Shown: positions 3,223-39,192, numbered from the stretch's first letter. The stretch is 40,561 nt of DNA from Gammaproteobacteria bacterium (GCA_019747795.1 JAIEQK010000031.1:1-40561); one strand, 5' to 3'. Numbers and translations: made by a program. Notes: a model not told the origin generated them from the letters alone.

Positions 3223-5174
<1,952 letters not shown>

Positions 5175-29709: not shown

Positions 29710-31062
29710 TCAGGTTGTGAGTATCCTTTCCAGGTTGGCGTAATCCTCCTGGATCCGCGTGTCGCTGGCCTTGAGTTCGGCCACTTTGCGACACGCATGA
29801 ATGACCGTCGTGTGGTCGCGACCGCCGAAAGCGTCACCGATTTCCGGCAGGCTGTGATTGGTCAATTCCTTGGCCAAGGCCATGGCCACCTGGCGAGGAC
29901 GGGCAATGGACCGTGTTCGACGTTTGGACAAGAGGTCCGCTACGCGCACCTTGTAGTACTCGGCCACCGTCTTCTGGATGTTGTCCATGGTGATCAGGCG
30001 GTCCTGCAACGCGAGCAGGTCACGCAGGGCTTCCTTGGCGAACTCCAGCGTGATCGCATTGCCGGTGAAATGAGCGTTGGCCACGACTCGATGCAACGCG
30101 CCCTCGAGTTCGCGAATGTTCGAGCGGAAGCGTTTACCAATGAAGAAGGCGACCTCGTGCGGCAGATCCACGTGACTCTGTTGCGCCTTGCGCATGAGGA
30201 TGGCAACCCGGGTTTCGAGCTCCGCGGGTTCGATGGCGACCGTGAGTCCCCAGCCGAAGCGCGACTTGAGCCGCTCTTCGACGCCCGAAACCTCCCGCGG
30301 GTAGCGGTCGCAGGTCAGTACGATCTGTTGCTGACCCTCAAGCAAGGCATTGAAAGTGTGAAAGAATTCTTCCTGCGAGCGTTCCTTGCCGGCAAAGAAC
30401 TGGATGTCGTCGATGAGTAGAGCATCGACCGAGCGGTAGAACCGTTTGAACTCGTTGATGGCGTTGTGCTGCAGCGCTTTCACCATGTCGGCGACGAAGC
30501 GTTCCGAGTGCAGGTAGACCACCTGTGCCGACGGCTTCTGCGCCATGATGAGATTGCCGACCGCGTGCATGAGATGGGTCTTGCCCAGGCCCACACCCCC
30601 GCAAATGAACAGTGGGTTGTAGGCTTTCCCAGGATTTTCAGCCACCTGCAGCGAAGCGGCGCGAGCGAGCTGGTTGGATTTGCCTTCGACGAAGGTATCG
30701 AACGTGAAGTCCTGCTTGAGCCCGTGCGCGCGCTTGGCGGCGGGTTCTGCCTTCCTGGTCGCGAGGGGTGCCGGTGTGGCAGCGGGCGGTTCGACCTTGG
30801 GCGGCGCCGGTGGCGGGCTGCTGGTGCCGATGCCGAGCGACAGCTCGACGCCGTTCGACCCGGACAACTGTTCGACGATGGCCCGAATGCGTGTGCCGTA
30901 CTTGTCGCGAATCCAGTCCAGGACGAAACGATTGGGCGCCAGGATCTCGAGCGCATGATCGACCTCGACCGCCTGCAAGGGTCGAATCCAGGTATTGAAC
31001 TGCTGGGGCGTCAACTCGCGTTCGAGCTGGACCAGGCACTGCTGCCAGAGAGAGTGCTGCAC
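29710..31062 (-). CDS. dnaA: Chromosomal replication initiator protein DnaA
   Basis: 450 residues from a GTG start at 31062, beginning [20 protein letters not shown] like other gamma DnaA proteins. Domain I is residues 1-70; a Pro/Ala-rich linker follows (about 80-112). AAA+ Walker A is GGVGLGKT (155-162) and Walker B is LLIDDIQFF (216-224). The domain IV signature [15 protein letters not shown] binds DnaA boxes. The open frame extends further upstream without homologous sequence, so an ATG at 31200 is rejected. Little Shine-Dalgarno is seen before the GTG. A DnaA box lies in its promoter region. Confidence 0.97.
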
Positions 31063-31109
31063 GTCGTTATACTTATTTTGCTGCTTGGGAAGCGAAGGGG
31101 CGGAGCGAG

Positions 31110-31138
31110 TGTATACGCCTGGCCGGGGCTTATCCACA
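31110..31138 (-). promoter_or_regulatory. DnaA box overlapping a candidate dnaA promoter
   Basis: A perfect DnaA box TTATCCACA at 31130-31138 (plus orientation). On the minus strand a -10-like TATACA (31115-31110) lies about 17 nt downstream of the box, which would cover the -35 region. This fits the usual autorepression of dnaA, or an origin element between dnaA and rpmH. The -35 itself is poor. Confidence 0.6.
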
Positions 31139-31171
31139 GGCCCGCGGCGCGTGTCGCGAACACGCCGAACA

Positions 31172-31200
31172 TTGACATAATTCCGGCACTTACTTAGCAT
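31172..31200 (+). promoter_or_regulatory. Sigma-70 promoter for rpmH
   Basis: Perfect -35 TTGACA (31172-31177), 17-nt spacer, -10 TAGCAT (31195-31200; four of six consensus bases). It would give a leader of about 70 nt before the rpmH ATG at 31279. It drives rpmH-rnpA and possibly yidC-mnmE. Confidence 0.75.
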
Positions 31201-31278
31201 CACGCGCCTTCCAACCGCCGGCGTCACCCGCGCGTTCCGCACGGTCAGGCGCATGCCCGAAACACAGACGGATTAGAA

Positions 31279-33497: not shown

Positions 33498-34859
33498 GTG
33501 ACGGCGACTGACACCATCGCCGCCGTCGCCACACCGCCTGGGCGCGGCGCGCTCGGCGTGGTGCGTGCGAGTGGTTCGCTGGTCCCGCGTCTCCTCGCCT
33601 CCCTGGTGGGCAGCGTGCCAGCGCCTCGCAGTGCCACGCTCCGGTCGTTCACGAACGGCCACGGGGAAGTGCTGGACCGCGGCCTGGTGCTGTACTTCCC
33701 TGCGCCGGCCTCCTACACCGGCGAAGACCTGTGCGAGTTCCATGCGCACGGCAATCCCCATCTGCTGCGCGCGTTGCTCGATTGCCTCTATGCGCTCGGC
33801 GCCCGTCCGGCGCGACCCGGTGAATTCACCGAAAGAGCGTTCCGCAACGGCAAACTGGATCTCGCCCAGGCGGAAGCCGTGGCCGACGTCATCGAAGGCA
33901 GTTCACTGCGTGCGACGCTGTCCGCCCTGCGCAGCCTGCGTGGCGAGTTCTCCCGCCAGGTTACCGAACTCGTCGCGCGCCTCACCGACGCCCGCGTCGC
34001 GCTCGAAGGCAGCATCGACTTTCCCGACGACCTGCCGCCCGCGGCCACGGCCGAGCGAGAATGCGCGCGCATCGTCGCCCTGCGAGATGGCCTGACGGCC
34101 CTGCTCGGCCGAGCTCGACACGGTGCGCGGCTCGCGGCGGGCGCGAGCGTTGCCATCATCGGCGCGCCCAACGTGGGTAAGTCGACGCTCCTGAACGCGC
34201 TCGCCGGAGAAGAGCGGGCCATCGTGAGCCAGGTGCCCGGGACCACGCGGGACGTCATCGCGGTAGACCTCGAACTTGGGGGCATGGCATTGCGGCTGCA
34301 CGACACCGCGGGTCTCCGCGCGAGCGCGGACGAAATCGAGCTGGAAGGCATGCGGCGCGCGGCCCAGGCGATGACGAGCGCCGACCTCATTCTCCTGGTG
34401 ACCGACGATCCGAAAGTGCGGTCGGTCGCGGCACACCTCGACGCGCTTGGCGATCCCTGTGTAACAGATGTAAGCAACGCAGCCGTCGTGATCGTGCACA
34501 ACAAGATCGATCGTGTGCCCCGCCAACCCGGCCGCGAGCGGTGCGTCGACGCCGAACACGTCTTCATCGCCGCGCGCGACGGACAGGGCCTCGAGCTGCT
34601 GCACGCGACCTTGCAGGACAGCCTGGCCCTCACGGTCGCCGACGAAGACGAGTTCACCGCGCGCGCCCGTCATCTCAGGGCCCTCGAGCTGGCGCGCGAC
34701 GAACTTGGCCACGTGGATCTCCAACGCTGCAACGACGCGCCAGAACTAGTAGCGGAGTCGCTGCGCCGCGCGGCCGAGACGCTCGCGACGATCACTGGCG
34801 ATGCCAGCAGCGAGGCGCTGCTGGGGGAAATATTCGCGCGCTTCTGCATCGGAAAGTAG
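33498..34859 (+). CDS. mnmE: tRNA modification GTPase MnmE (TrmE)
   Basis: 453 residues from a GTG start, 10 bp after yidC. It acts with MnmG to make 5-carboxymethylaminomethyl-uridine at tRNA position 34. N-terminal DTIAAVATPPGRGALGVVR binds the folate donor. G1 GAPNVGKST (222-230), TTRD, DTAGLR and NKID are intact. The C-terminal catalytic tail is FCIGK. The last 18 bp of the gene match the attachment-site position used by SGI1-like islands; the tail remains complete, so function should be kept. mnmG is not in the window. Confidence 0.98.
   Translation: MTATDTIAAVATPPGRGALGVVRASGSLVPRLLASLVGSVPAPRSATLRSFTNGHGEVLDRGLVLYFPAPASYTGEDLCEFHAHGNPHLLRALLDCLYALGARPARPGEFTERAFRNGKLDLAQAEAVADVIEGSSLRATLSALRSLRGEFSRQVTELVARLTDARVALEGSIDFPDDLPPAATAERECARIVALRDGLTALLGRARHGARLAAGASVAIIGAPNVGKSTLLNALAGEERAIVSQVPGTTRDVIAVDLELGGMALRLHDTAGLRASADEIELEGMRRAAQAMTSADLILLVTDDPKVRSVAAHLDALGDPCVTDVSNAAVVIVHNKIDRVPRQPGRERCVDAEHVFIAARDGQGLELLHATLQDSLALTVADEDEFTARARHLRALELARDELGHVDLQRCNDAPELVAESLRRAAETLATITGDASSEALLGEIFARFCIGK
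34842..34859 (+). other. Candidate attL: last 18 bp of mnmE
   Basis: TTCTGCATCGGAAAGTAG encodes FCIGK-stop. It differs from the known SGI1 attachment core (last 18 bp of thdF/trmE) only at degenerate positions, as I recall that sequence. An integrase gene starts 207 bp downstream and composition changes right here. I looked for a second copy (attR) downstream to 40561 and saw none, so the right end is beyond the window or degenerate. Confidence 0.65.
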
Positions 34860-34914
34860 AGAAAGGAATTCTGAGGAACGCTCAGGACTTCTCAGCATCT
34901 CCATTTCCCCATAA

Positions 34915-34938
34915 GTGCCTGCGATTTCGGCACCTTTT
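34915..34938 (+). terminator. Weak hairpin plus T-tract downstream of mnmE
   Basis: GTGCC (34915-34919), 9-nt loop, GGCAC (34929-34933), then CTTTT. The short stem makes it a weak terminator candidate for the rpmH-mnmE transcript. Two other small hairpins lie nearby: CTGAG-GAACG-CTCAG (34871-34885) and TGGCTTC-TTGAC-GAAGCCA (34957-34975). Confidence 0.4.
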
Positions 34939-34984
34939 CGTTCCTCTCCGGATCTATGGCTTCTTGACGAAGCCATTCCGAATC

Positions 34985-35043
34985 GTGACCATGGCTACGA
35001 CCACCGCCAAAATGGACACACTCGATGGAGGCGCCATGGTCAC
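34985..35043. repeat. 11-bp perfect inverted repeat upstream of the integrase
   Basis: GTGACCATGGC (34985-34995) and GCCATGGTCAC (35033-35043) are exact reverse complements separated by 37 bp. They lie directly before the integrase ATG at 35067. Candidate binding sites for integrase, excisionase (AlpA) or a repressor controlling int. No sequence similarity to known sites is claimed. Confidence 0.6.
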
Positions 35044-35066
35044 AACATGGACACAGGGACTCAGCA

Positions 35067-36281
35067 ATGGCACTCACAGATACCGCAATTAAGGCCCTGA
35101 AACCCCGCGTAACGGCCTACGCGAAGGCGGACGGCCACGGGCTGGTAATCGAGGTACTCCCAACCGGCTCGAAGGTCTGGCGGCTGCGCTACCGCCTCAG
35201 CGGGCGGCAAGAAAAGGTCACCATTGGCCCCTACCCTGAATTCACCTTGGCAGAGGCTCGTGACAAGGCAGCAGACATGCGCCGCCTAGTCGCTCGCGGG
35301 GAATCCCCAGCCGCAACCAAACGTCGCGAAAAGGCCGCCGCGCGTAACCCAGACATCGTCGCCGAATTCGCCAAAGTGTGGATGTCCGAAGTCGTTGCTA
35401 AGGACCGCAAGGACACCACACAGATCCAACGCTACATCGACAAGGACATCATCCCCGCGATCGGCAACCGCCGCCTTTCCGAGGTTAAACCTGCCGACGT
35501 ACTCGCTATCTGCGACCGTATCAAGAAGCACCGCGGGGCTGACCAGACCGCGTTACAGGTACGCGGCGTCATCAAGAGGATGTACGCGTATGCCGTTGCT
35601 CGCCAGCTAGTGCAATTCAACCCTGCTGCCGCCATTGAGGCTCGATACATCGCCACACCCAACGCACGGGAGCGTGTCCTTTCGGCGGCAGAGGTCGGCC
35701 GTCTGTTCCGAGCCATAGATCAATCCAACATGCGTCGCAGCCTCAAGCTGGCACTCCGCTTACTCATGCTAACGATGGTGCGCAAGTCCGACCTGATCCT
35801 AGCTCGCTGGGAGCAAATAGATTTCGATGCGGCCGAGTGGCACATCCCCACAACGAAAACGGGCGTTCCGCATATCGTTTACTTGTCTGTGCAAGCCATT
35901 GCGTTATTCGAAGAGGCGCGCAGACTTGCGTGCGGTTCGGAGTGGGTGCTGCCGTCACGTTCCACATTAGCAAAACCCATCGACCGAGCGACGCTTAACG
36001 TCGCCATCAAGGCTATGGACCACGATCTAGACTCGTTCGTCCTTCACGATTTCCGACGCACCGCGAGCACTCATCTGCACGAATCGGGGTTCGCCCCAGA
36101 CGTGATTGAAGCAGCACTCGCGCACACCATTGGAGGTGTCCGGGGCGTTTACAACCGAGCGCAGTACGCTACGCAACGTCGCGACATGTTGCAGGAATGG
36201 GCGAATATCGTCGATCGCTGGGCAGCTGGAGCCAAAATCATCCCCGCCAAATTCCCCTCCGTTCGAACGGGCACGAGGTAG
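35067..36281 (+). CDS. int: P4-type tyrosine recombinase/integrase
   Basis: 404 residues. N-terminal DUF4102 arm-binding domain (ALTDTAIKALKPRVTAYAK, YRLSGRQEKVTIGPYP). The core-binding domain covers about 95-195 and the catalytic domain follows. Catalytic residues visible: R239 (MVRKSD), probable K264, H327-x-x-R330 (HDFRRTAST), H353 (LAHTIGG) and the nucleophile Y362 (VYNRAQY). ATG 35067 was preferred over ATG 35025 because the family starts with this ALTD..I motif. Length and position beside the mnmE 3' end match the SGI1 integrase type, although I cannot confirm a specific subfamily. It should catalyse integration and excision at mnmE. Confidence 0.95.
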   Translation: MALTDTAIKALKPRVTAYAKADGHGLVIEVLPTGSKVWRLRYRLSGRQEKVTIGPYPEFTLAEARDKAADMRRLVARGESPAATKRREKAAARNPDIVAEFAKVWMSEVVAKDRKDTTQIQRYIDKDIIPAIGNRRLSEVKPADVLAICDRIKKHRGADQTALQVRGVIKRMYAYAVARQLVQFNPAAAIEARYIATPNARERVLSAAEVGRLFRAIDQSNMRRSLKLALRLLMLTMVRKSDLILARWEQIDFDAAEWHIPTTKTGVPHIVYLSVQAIALFEEARRLACGSEWVLPSRSTLAKPIDRATLNVAIKAMDHDLDSFVLHDFRRTASTHLHESGFAPDVIEAALAHTIGGVRGVYNRAQYATQRRDMLQEWANIVDRWAAGAKIIPAKFPSVRTGTR

Positions 36282-36394
36282 GACGCGCCCTCGAACGACA
36301 GCGATCTATATCGCTATTGAACTGCCCGAACTGGCTGGCTTGCAAAAATTCAATGGTGCGGCGCCCGTCGCGTTCATAGTCTAAGAAAGTCCAG

Positions 36395-37324
36395 ATGGAA
36401 GGCAGCGTTTCCGAAGAATCCAACGAAGCCACGCTTGGCAGTGGTGTCTGTCCATTCTGCGGCGCTGGCGGTGCCCATCCCTTCGATTGGGATTCTTGGC
36501 GCTGCGGAACCTGTAACCGCGAATACCCAACGAGCGCCTCGAAGTGCCGCTCTACTGGATGTTGGGAATTTGCGTCACATGAAAACTACTGCACTCGACA
36601 CCTGCCTCGGGGGTTACACCTGCTCGATCAAGAATCCTATTCGGTGCTAGTCACGGATCTCTTTCATTTCATGGACCAAGAAGGGCAAAAGCTGGAAACG
36701 GGATTTCCAACTTGGGAGGCGGCTCGCAATTATGCCCGCGCCAAAACATGGTCATCTGTCCAAGGGCATAAGAAAGCAGGCCTGAGCGCCGACGAAGTGA
36801 AACGGCTATGGATGGCGTTCGGCGAGTCCGCAATCGTCATCGGTGGCCCAAGCTACTCAGCGAAAGACGAAATCGACTACTTCCTTCATCATGACCCCCG
36901 CCCCGAGGACAGTGACGATTCACGAATCGTCCGCGCCACAGAACCGCAGCAGCAAAATCCTCAAAAAATTCAAATAACGGCATCTCTTCGACCCGCTCCA
37001 GAATCCTTGCTGAGCACTTCCCAGGCACGATTTTATTTCCCATCAATTCGAATTGAACCCGTCGGCGCCTGGGCACTTACCGGCCTGCTCTTGGGAATCG
37101 CGATTGGCCTCGTTCGTATAAACGTGCATCTGCCCCACTCAACCTACCAGTCGTTGTATTTGCTTGAGCAGCTTATCTGGTTTGTCGACGGTGGATTCTT
37201 GTTGCCGATTTGGGGAAGTACTGCCGGGAGGAAAATGGAGAGAAATCTAGCTTGGTTGCTGTTTTTCGCTCTATGGGGCATTGCCACCTGTGCCTTTATC
37301 GCGCTGGTGTTCCATTGGATTTGA
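36395..37324 (+). CDS. Unknown protein: N-terminal zinc ribbon, C-terminal membrane helices
   Basis: 309 residues. I do not recognise the family. CPFC (C19, C22) and CGTC (C37, C40) form a zinc ribbon; a second cluster C51, C56, C66 with H69 follows. A soluble middle (about 75-215) includes FPTWEAARNYARAKTW and KAGLSADEVKRLWMAFGES. Three hydrophobic segments end the protein (about 227-247, 258-280, 285-307). So the cytoplasmic part probably senses or binds something while the C-terminus anchors it. It sits between int and alpA, a common cargo position in P4-like elements, and its codon use is less GC-rich than that of the chromosomal genes. The ATG at 36395 has a modest ribosome-binding site. 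Confidence 0.7.
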   Translation: MEGSVSEESNEATLGSGVCPFCGAGGAHPFDWDSWRCGTCNREYPTSASKCRSTGCWEFASHENYCTRHLPRGLHLLDQESYSVLVTDLFHFMDQEGQKLETGFPTWEAARNYARAKTWSSVQGHKKAGLSADEVKRLWMAFGESAIVIGGPSYSAKDEIDYFLHHDPRPEDSDDSRIVRATEPQQQNPQKIQITASLRPAPESLLSTSQARFYFPSIRIEPVGAWALTGLLLGIAIGLVRINVHLPHSTYQSLYLLEQLIWFVDGGFLLPIWGSTAGRKMERNLAWLLFFALWGIATCAFIALVFHWI

Positions 37325-37396
37325 ACTAGCAGTTCGCTTAGCAAACCGCGTTTTGAAGTTGCCGTGTGACACGAAGAGCCATCCAGAGACGCTATT

Positions 37397-37924
37397 GTGG
37401 TCAAATCGAAATTTCCTATCCGTCATCCTCCATCTCGAAAATCGCCTATCGCGGTTTCTGGATGGGGCGCTGCCGCAGAATTTGAACGCTCCAGCGAATC
37501 CGCGGAGAAAGAACCGGGCACACTCTGGTTTCGCGACCCTGAGAAACTTTTAGCTGCTGTCGTCCAACACGCTATTTCGTCGCCCACATTCGCGCGAGAC
37601 TTCGTTACAGCGGCGGGAACTCTAGCTTCGGCCCCACACGCCAAAGAGCTTCGAACCGCGTTTAAGGCCGCTCTTATCGCGGACGCGCCGAAAACACCAG
37701 GACGAGCCACGAAAGAGCTCTGGTTCTGCACAATGCTAGAGAATGACTACGTTGTCTTGTGTGAGGTGCACGGGATGAAATCGGGAGACGCATACGCACT
37801 CGTCGGTAAACTCCGGCACCTCACCGCCAGCCGTGTTCGGCAGCTTGTTGCTCGCAGCAAGGCTCACTGGGCCGCTGCCAGGAAATCGACCATTTCCAAG
37901 CAAGACGATTTAAAGCAGGAATGA
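37397..37924 (+). CDS. Unknown soluble protein of the mnmE element
   Basis: 175 residues from a GTG start. No membrane helices and no recognised domain. The N-terminus (1-40) is basic and Ser-rich. The middle is helical (EKLLAAVVQHAISSPTF, KELRTAFKAALIAD). The last third (YALVGKLRHLTASRVRQLVARSK) could form a helix-turn-helix, so DNA binding is possible. It lies 72 bp after the zinc-ribbon gene and just before alpA. I give no function. Confidence 0.6.
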   Translation: MVKSKFPIRHPPSRKSPIAVSGWGAAAEFERSSESAEKEPGTLWFRDPEKLLAAVVQHAISSPTFARDFVTAAGTLASAPHAKELRTAFKAALIADAPKTPGRATKELWFCTMLENDYVVLCEVHGMKSGDAYALVGKLRHLTASRVRQLVARSKAHWAAARKSTISKQDDLKQE

Positions 37925-37930
37925 TTAGAT

Positions 37931-37954
37931 GTCCCTCCAATTATTGAGAGGGAC
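37931..37954 (+). promoter_or_regulatory. Inverted repeat covering the alpA ribosome-binding site
   Basis: GTCCCTC (37931-37937) and GAGGGAC (37948-37954) are perfect reverse complements around an AT-rich 10-nt loop. The right arm contains the GAGGGA Shine-Dalgarno of alpA (ATG at 37960). Either a DNA operator or an RNA hairpin that hides the ribosome-binding site. Confidence 0.6.
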
Positions 37955-37959
37955 TACCA

Positions 37960-38160
37960 ATGCTTGACCGTTTCCTTCGCCGCGACGCAGTCGAATCCCT
38001 GACTGGTCTTAGCCGCTCCGCAATCTATGCCGCTATGCGGGCTGGGACTTTTCCCTCGCCCGTTCGCATCGGCAAATCGGCCGTTGCTTGGCGTGCCTGT
38101 GAAATCGAAGACTGGCAAGCCGCGCGAATCGCCGCCACCCGCCTGCGTAACGCAGGTTAA
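37960..38160 (+). CDS. alpA: AlpA-family regulator (excisionase-type)
   Basis: 66 residues. MerR-like winged helix-turn-helix: FLRRDAVESLTGLSRSAIYA, then MRAGTFPSPVRIGKSAVAW and the terminal EIEDWQAAR, exactly the AlpA pattern. AlpA proteins activate or act as directionality factors of P4-type integrases. It lies in the same direction as int and directly before the Rep-like gene. The ribosome-binding site is inside an inverted repeat. Confidence 0.92.
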   Translation: MLDRFLRRDAVESLTGLSRSAIYAAMRAGTFPSPVRIGKSAVAWRACEIEDWQAARIAATRLRNAG

Positions 38161-38260
38161 GCCGAATTCTACCTAAACACGCTTCGCGACCCGTCTTTCC
38201 GCGAGATGGCCGTGAACGACGCAAACCTCGATAACAAAAGACAGGCGCTCGAGATCTGAT

Positions 38261-38764
38261 ATGTCAGCACGGTCGAGCAGACGAGGTCCGAAATCGGGCC
38301 AATCCCATGAACCCGGCCCTTTCGTTGCACTGAGCCGGCGCTTTCTCAGGAGCCGCACGATGCTCGAATTGAGCGCCCACGCAATGAAACTATTCTTCGA
38401 TGTGCTTGCGCAATACGACGGCTACAACAACGGTGACATGTGCCTAGCGTGGTCAGTGATGAAGACCCGTGGGTGGTCGTCGCGTGACACGTTGGCAAAA
38501 GCACGGGCTGAGTTGCTCGCCAGCGGTGTTCTCGAGATTTCCCGACAGGGAGGACGCCACAAGGCCACACTATATGCATTAAGCATATTCGCTGTGAACG
38601 ACTGCAAGGGGAAGCTGGACATCGCGGCCACTCGGGCACCTAAAAGCCTATGGCGGGAGACCGAAAATCCGCCGGAGCCCCTCTGTGCGCCCCAACCTGA
38701 CAAAAATCGTGACCCGCCTGGCGGGTCAATCAGCCATTCAATGACCCGCCCGGCGTGTCAATAA
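38261..38764 (+). CDS. Winged-helix protein resembling replication/plasmid initiator-associated proteins
   Basis: 167 residues. PFVALSRRFLRSRTMLELSAHAMKLFFDVLAQYDGYNNGD (20-59, as a block) followed by MKTRGWSSRDTLAKARAELLASGV is the pattern of a family of helix-turn-helix proteins encoded beside AlpA on P4-like islands and resembling plasmid Rep winged helices. The polar C-terminal tail (about 135-167) is partly encoded by the palindromic repeats at 38710-38760, so the gene and repeat array overlap. A role in replication or copy control of the excised element is inference. Confidence 0.7.
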   Translation: MSARSSRRGPKSGQSHEPGPFVALSRRFLRSRTMLELSAHAMKLFFDVLAQYDGYNNGDMCLAWSVMKTRGWSSRDTLAKARAELLASGVLEISRQGGRHKATLYALSIFAVNDCKGKLDIAATRAPKSLWRETENPPEPLCAPQPDKNRDPPGGSISHSMTRPACQ

Positions 38765-38845
38765 ATTCAACACTTCGTGCGATTGTCCCGGTTAGCGGGC
38801 CATATAGGGTACTTTTTCGACGCACTTTGACCCGCCGGCCGTGCA
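38710..38845. repeat. Iteron-like TGACCCGCC repeats (palindromic)
   Basis: Copy 1 (38710-38728): TGACCCGCC-T-GGCGGGTCA, a perfect palindrome. Copy 2 (38742-38760): TGACCCGCC-C-GGCGTGTCA, one mismatch, starting 32 bp (about three helical turns) after copy 1. Copy 3: half-site TGACCCGCC at 38828-38836 followed by GGCCGTGCA. They flank the 3' end of the Rep-like gene and lead into a more AT-rich stretch (around 38761-38830). Possible replication iterons or operator sites. Confidence 0.7.
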
Positions 38846-38955
38846 CCTTTCTAGATAGCCATTCCAGGCACCCAATTGCTCAGATTCGTTGAGAGGCATT
38901 GTGGTTAAGGCAATCCGGTTTCATTTGTCGATGTCGGCGACTGCGAGGAAGAAAA

Positions 38956-39192
38956 ATGGGCAAGCGAATTGAGCTCTCCGAGATTCCCAAATCTGGACGA
39001 GCGTCGATAAGGATTGCGCTTGATCACTTCAAGGGCCGAAAAGTGGTCGACATCAGACTATGGTTCCTGCCAAAAGGCTCGGATACCTTCGTGCCGAGCC
39101 AAAAGGGGATCACGGTCGATGCAAACCAGTTCCTCCATTTGGCTGACGCGATTAACGTTGCTTCAATCCGATTGATTGCGAATGACCTTTGA
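38956..39192 (+). CDS. PC4/p15-type single-stranded DNA-binding protein
   Basis: 78 residues. VVDIRLWFLPKGSDTFVPSQ then KGITVDANQFLHLADAI is the PC4 core: strands forming a ssDNA-binding sheet, then the KGI[ST] turn and the dimer helix. Bacterial and phage PC4-like proteins bind single-stranded DNA. The ATG at 38956 has AGGAAG 6-10 nt upstream and excludes an unrelated N-terminal stretch of the longer open frame. Position after the Rep-like gene fits a role in element replication or recombination. Function is inferred from the fold. Confidence 0.75.
   Translation: MGKRIELSEIPKSGRASIRIALDHFKGRKVVDIRLWFLPKGSDTFVPSQKGITVDANQFLHLADAINVASIRLIANDL

Follow-up and report, generated by a model that had tools for sequence, protein, structure and literature searches.

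Islands of the SGI1 type integrate at the 3′ end of trmE, also named mnmE (PMC7449626, PMC8409611). The PICI EcCICFT073 has the order int-alpA-pri-rep-ori, with a Pri-Rep protein and two sets of iterons flanking an A+T-rich region (PMC6092414). PICMI needs int, alpA and a primase, and integrates at fis (PMC10803314). The PLE satellite has a RepA_N initiator and semi-palindromic iterons, and needs a helper phage (PMC7145576). For satellites and islands that lack a helicase of their own, the way in which replication begins is an open question, on which the locus presented here bears. It is an island of ordinary type, with integrase, AlpA and restriction-modification cargo, at a known hotspot, and carries what seems to be an undescribed and widely shared replicon cassette composed of a winged-helix gene, iterons and a conserved box; no description of this cassette was found in the open full-text literature searched.

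The window, that is, the whole stretch of 40,561 nucleotides analysed, is one entire contig (C300) of the 331-contig draft genome of a gammaproteobacterium (G000). In this contig mnmE comes after yidC, and dnaA is located on the opposite strand (29710–31254). The first-pass annotation had proposed that the 3′ end of mnmE harbours an integrative element with its right boundary at 39192, and had named the lack of an empty site, or of a second copy of the core on the right, as observations that would refute it; both the empty site and the second core turned out to exist. The core at the end of mnmE is present only once in the window, and a search with the attL pattern allowing up to 3 mismatches, in the window and the rest of the genome, returned unrelated matches only, e.g. 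inside an ORF on contig C291. The attR site was located through the downstream neighbour of mnmE in another genome of the same genus (G002), where a GT9 glycosyltransferase-type gene directly follows mnmE, representing the empty site. The corresponding gene of the window's own genome is at C241:10248–11150, and directly 5′ of it, at C241:10216–10233, is attR, TTCTGCATCGGCAAATGA. Read in the mnmE frame attR gives FCIGK*, with an ATGA that overlaps with the start of the GT9 gene, matching the expected original junction. The core directly before the GT9 gene, together with the gene order of the empty site, thus indicates that contig C300 carries attL and contig C241 carries attR. With a tyrosine integrase, a core at each end and the empty site of G002, the locus is, as judged from sequence, a genuine integrative element in the mnmE 3′ end, and its boundaries and empty site are established on the same basis. 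The 18-bp core proposed earlier stood in part: the 18-bp end of mnmE is present, but attL and attR share an identical stretch of only 11 bp, TTCTGCATCGG.

The boundary at 39192 had to be abandoned, as had the idea of a minimal element of 4.3 kb. Since attR is on a separate contig, the island has at least about 16 kb; this is the total of its visible parts, and an assembly gap of undefined size lies between C300 and C241. No overlap was found between the ends of the two contigs, which are linked only through the two att sites, so that tandem elements or intervening contigs are possible. The lower G+C content claimed for the element was confirmed, with 56% for positions 34860–39192 against 65% on the left flank and 71% to the right of attR. 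The 118-aa ORF beyond the former boundary is probably still within the element, because no second att precedes it. The right end of the contig (39834–40561) is G+C-rich (about 68%) and ends abruptly at the assembly gap; a convincing gene is lacking there, and a comparison with plasmids returned no match.

Table 1. Features of the mnmE-proximal part of the island, with positions counted from the first letter of the window.
Feature	Position	Strand	Observations
mnmE (trmE), host gene	33498..34859	+	3′ end is the integration site; ORF with relatives over its full length in nearly all of the 40 genomes covered
attL core TTCTGCATCGGAAAGTAG	34842..34859	+	End of mnmE; first 11 bp identical to attR
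Direct repeats CAAAATGGACACA / CAACATGGACACA	35008..35055	+	Between att and int; putative arm-type integrase sites
Tyrosine integrase	35025..36281	+	PF13356 Arm-DNA-bind_3, 7e-26; PF00589 Phage_integrase, 1e-21
ORF1	36395..37324	+	Two CxxC pairs; C-terminal hydrophobic stretches near residues 222–246 and 284–309
ORF2, 175 aa	37397..37924	+	Open frame, no family matched
AlpA/Cox-type excisionase-regulator	37960..38160	+	PF05930, 1.2e-19; phrog_2790
Winged-helix putative replication initiator	38261..38764	+	Single domain, resembles N-terminal domain of RepA; AF2 model
Iteron 1 TGACCCGCCTGGCGGGTCA	38710..38728	+	Overlaps 3′ end of winged-helix gene
Iteron 2 TGACCCGCCCGGCGTGTCA	38742..38760	+	Repeat search
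Iteron 3 (degenerate) TGTCCCGGTTAGCGGGCCA	38784..38802	+	Identified by position and similarity; in helical register
Iteron 4 TTGACCCGCCGGCCGTGC	38827..38844 (start 38828 in the spacing count)	+	Abuts box
Conserved box ACCTTTCTAGATAGCCAT	38845..38862	+	Proposed melting/loading site of putative origin
PC4-like protein, predicted to bind single-strand DNA	38899..39192	+	PF02229, 3.9e-9; likely start ATG 38957
ORF, 118 aa	39477..39833	+	No second att before it

The integrase, ORF1, ORF2, the AlpA-type gene, the winged-helix gene with its repeats, the PC4-like gene and the 118-aa ORF are all on one strand, and the sequence supports the identities given in Table 1. These agree with the first-pass annotation for the integrase near the mnmE stop (the likely start, ATG 35070, is 210 bp past it), for the AlpA and PC4-like proteins, for the zinc-ribbon and membrane features of ORF1, and for ORF2 as a frame outside known families; the Rep-like winged helix is supported by the AF2 model, and the repeats are real, exceeding chance expectation. 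Homologues of ORF1 were absent from plasmids, viral contigs and the other loci, and those of ORF2 from viral contigs, 190 genomes and the other loci. Both had been regarded as the main cargo, a role that does not fit the present results: they are genes of unassigned function, and the cargo proximal to attR, on C241, is a type I restriction-modification (R-M) locus. There, HsdM, HsdS, a 295-aa gene, a Schlafen/AlbA protein gene and HsdR are followed by attR. The presence of HsdM, HsdS and HsdR together identifies, by sequence similarity, a type I R-M system, which is accompanied by the two further genes. The 295-aa gene (L083:3730–4617 in the locus from C241) has a weak match to PADLOC PDC-S32, and the Schlafen/AlbA protein (L083:4626–6269) has a RecG-C-like domain; both are unusual companions of HsdS and HsdR. 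The two halves of HsdS (L083:2670–3041 and 3261–3632) are 77% identical over 376 bp, and consequently both target-recognition domains may read similar half-sites.

In relation to the described systems, the island shares with SGI1 the integration site at the mnmE 3′ end, and to this extent the earlier comparison with SGI1-type islands holds. No SGI1 backbone or conjugation-helper gene (xis, rep, mps, traN, traG/H) is among the visible ORFs on either side of the assembly gap, and an AlpA-type gene and type I R-M cargo are present. As in PICIs, an integrase and AlpA are followed by a putative replication protein and a putative iteron origin; on the other hand, the protein here has a single winged-helix domain, and one set of iterons lies on one side of a conserved terminal box. 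A Pri-Rep protein with flanking iterons was not found among the visible genes, and a primase could sit in the assembly gap; the visible part of the island also lacks a divergent master repressor and a packaging gene of the PICI type. PICMI is distinguished by its site, fis instead of mnmE, and by its primase. The likeness to PLE lies in a putative RepA-like winged-helix initiator without helicase or primase, in semi-palindromic direct-repeat iterons and in the use of helper machinery, which is proposed here. PLE differs by a RepA_N protein with a C-terminal domain, a serine integrase and other gene content, and in the cited parts of its description (PMC7145576) no box like that of the island appears.

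Relatives of the winged-helix protein were found in 19 of 369 genomes of the class (the window's own included), in 15 viral contigs and in at least 80 genome contigs, the last almost all from beta- and gammaproteobacteria. These relatives, at least 95, occur in islands and capsid-encoding satellites of beta- and gammaproteobacteria. An integrase cluster is present in 76 of the 96 winged-helix loci, and AlpA-type genes in most. At least two of the capsid, portal, protease and terminase genes accompany the protein, downstream of it, in 11/96 loci, which approximates it to the capsid-forming satellites (cf-PICI type), whereas the visible part of the studied island has neither capsid nor packaging genes. 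In another element, a second gene of the PC4 family (L183:3827–4102) immediately follows the winged-helix gene, and by its position suggests that a single-strand-binding helper gene recurs beside genes of this family.

Almost all of the loci examined visually at the outset had repeats where the winged-helix gene ends and, after them, a single box, with consensus ACCTTTATAGATNTACCAT across the family; the last iteron abuts it. The iterons, mostly 3–4 per element and with element-specific sequence, come after the winged-helix gene; in most loci the 18-base stretch preceding the box is present in 2–5 direct copies per element. Their spacing has a period of 10.6 bp (R 0.75 against a null maximum of 0.26), corresponding to whole helical turns, the commonest distances being 43–44, 86–87, 95–97, 109 and 116–120; in the window the start-to-start spacings are 32/42/44. 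In a cross-validated test, in which the model was trained on half of 58 nonredundant loci, a box of at least 12 bits was found downstream in 41/58, whereas the three controls (reverse strand, upstream, shuffled) gave no such box. Many elements have a second conserved motif, CAGTCAGGCC followed by TTTT, between their last two iterons, at −44 to −29 before the box (about 38801–38816 in the window). The window therefore presents the arrangement of an iteron origin, with direct repeats in helical phase adjoining a putative initiator gene. The sequences thus support a conserved iteron–box architecture, for which Rfam returned no match.

The box was also considered as a general phage cos site and rejected as such, since most of the 19 exact box matches in viral contigs are without winged-helix gene or iterons. 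Two of the 19 have the gene, both with four iteron copies, and most of the others look like chance matches in A+T-rich DNA; at L226 and L216/L232 the repeats are short or of low complexity. One locus found by the box alone (L224) has a divergent winged helix and four iterons of new sequence. In L235, the winged-helix gene is annotated as ‘replication protein O’ and adjoins a primase gene, with four iterons and the box. This sequence (PP003913.1) is deposited as ‘Pseudomonas phage vB_Pae_U1’ and has 16187 bp, with int, cox, primase and Rhs-annotated genes; its annotation holds no capsid or tail genes, and it resembles an integrative island more than a phage. In L236, the winged-helix gene is located between toprim primase and helicase genes in a capsid-bearing element, which has no recognisable copy of the box although iterons are present. 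L236 is a satellite-like element inside a 569-kb Cupriavidus plasmid (NZ_CP032520.1, 388496–404795), and additionally contains a gene for a group II intron reverse transcriptase. The protein together with the box gives a practical marker for satellites and islands, including those filed as phages.

The evidence for an initiator comes from profiles, from covariation and from the primase or helicase neighbours in L235 and L236. The best matches of the family profile in the PDB are RepA plasmid initiators (best E 0.0045, 4pta), and relatives match phage DnaD-like loader and O-like initiator families, down to 7.6e-6. The likeness to RepA is weak by sequence: Pfam RepA_N (PF06970) was matched by 0/12 family members tested at E 0.1, and membership of that family was rejected. 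Structural comparison (4pql, Z 7.8) gave scores hardly above those of other winged helices, including TubR and repressors; as it names no single family, it was not relied on for identity. Between elements, mean identity is 43% for the iterons and 64% for the box. Iteron similarity follows that of the helix-turn-helix region when the rest of the protein is corrected for (partial Mantel r 0.32, p 0.001). Among the leading covariers with both iteron halves are residues 75, 76 and 79, located where the modelled recognition helix begins. Residue 134 also carries much of the iteron covariation, and its position outside the recognition helix indicates that part of the signal is shared descent. The covariation, supported by the sequences, is consistent with the pattern expected of a protein that reads these sites, with a contribution of shared descent. 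The winged-helix protein, the iterons and the box are therefore probably an initiator plus its origin.

From the gene content and this architecture we infer excision, iteron binding, origin activity, helper dependence and mode of transfer. The integrase would recombine the core of the element with TTCTGCATCGG at the mnmE end and supply a new 3′ end, so that MnmE still ends in FCIGK. AlpA is the probable excision factor, and the excised circle would use an origin of its own for replication. The winged-helix protein would bind the four semi-palindromic, helically phased iterons overlapping and 3′ of its gene, and the nucleoprotein array may open the DNA or load machinery at the A+T-rich box abutting the last iteron, where the PC4-like protein may cover single-stranded DNA. 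As no primase or helicase gene is among the visible island ORFs, replication proteins of the host or of a helper phage would be borrowed, as for RepA of the PLE satellite. This would be an undescribed and widespread type of replicon of proteobacterial islands and satellites, in which a helicase-free one-domain initiator and element-specific phased iterons are combined with a universal box as common entry for host or helper machinery, a proposal whose chances we hold to be evenly balanced. Within it, element-specific iterons would let incompatibility groups diverge while the universal box keeps the start site fixed. At about 600 bp the cassette is compact, and dozens of variants of it occur in nature; among them the putative binding sites vary with the protein and the box does not. 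That the locus as a whole is an element at mnmE with a replicating iteron–box cassette and R-M cargo appears likely to us.

The winged-helix protein could also be a transcription factor, with the iterons as operators and the box as the −10 of a promoter driving the downstream genes, i.e. capsid genes in satellites and PC4 here. The repressors CodY, MecI and LexA are among its best structural matches, the box contains TATAGAT, the capsid operon is directly 3′ of the box in some satellites, and helically phased palindromes suit regulators too. However, conservation of the box reaches ACCTT and ACCA on either side of the TATA core, no conserved −35 occurs at the right distance, and a sigma-70 scan gave no promoter at the box on this strand; sequence profiles favour initiators, and two relatives adjoin primase or helicase genes. 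We consider this regulatory role unlikely. A partition or incompatibility locus, with a TubR/ParR-like centromere-binding protein on the iterons, would agree with the TubR structures among the matches (4asn, Z 6.7) and with the binding of TubR/ParR-like proteins to iteron arrays, but it is highly improbable, as a ParA, ParM or TubZ partner is neither in the window nor evident among the recurrent neighbour clusters, and a centromere leaves the fixed box unexplained.

Two tandem elements could instead share the mnmE site: the window would hold the one from integrase to PC4, and C241 an R-M island of its own. The lack of overlap between the contig ends and the G+C content of the C241 island part, 63% against 56% on the window side, would agree with this arrangement. 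On C300 and C241, however, there are only one attL-type and one attR-type core, although an internal core could sit in the gap, and in 9/96 loci a type I methyltransferase gene is found no more than 8 kb from the winged-helix gene, so the combination is known elsewhere. A tandem is thus rather unlikely, and a single island with cassette and R-M cargo is the preferred reading.

A second genome of the same genus (G001) has the same layout split over contigs C263 and C304, with attL and attR at the same site; its left end is 79% identical and includes the beginning of a related integrase (76%). No winged-helix relative was found in the G001 assembly in spite of this integrase, which indicates that the cassette is not essential to integration and that modules probably mix. 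For the Thiohalobacter element, a search allowing 2 mismatches gave no attR. In a Chromatiaceae genome (L113/L164), mnmE holds a complete related element of 5.4 kb, whose two cores lie at positions 4932 and 10339 of L164. The integrases of L164 and L182, 56–57% identical to that of the window, are the two located beside mnmE among the loci examined, and this coincidence suggests, from sequence comparison, an integrase subclade specific for mnmE. The evidence on the site suggests that such a group of integrases, specific for mnmE, occurs in elements lacking SGI1-type genes.
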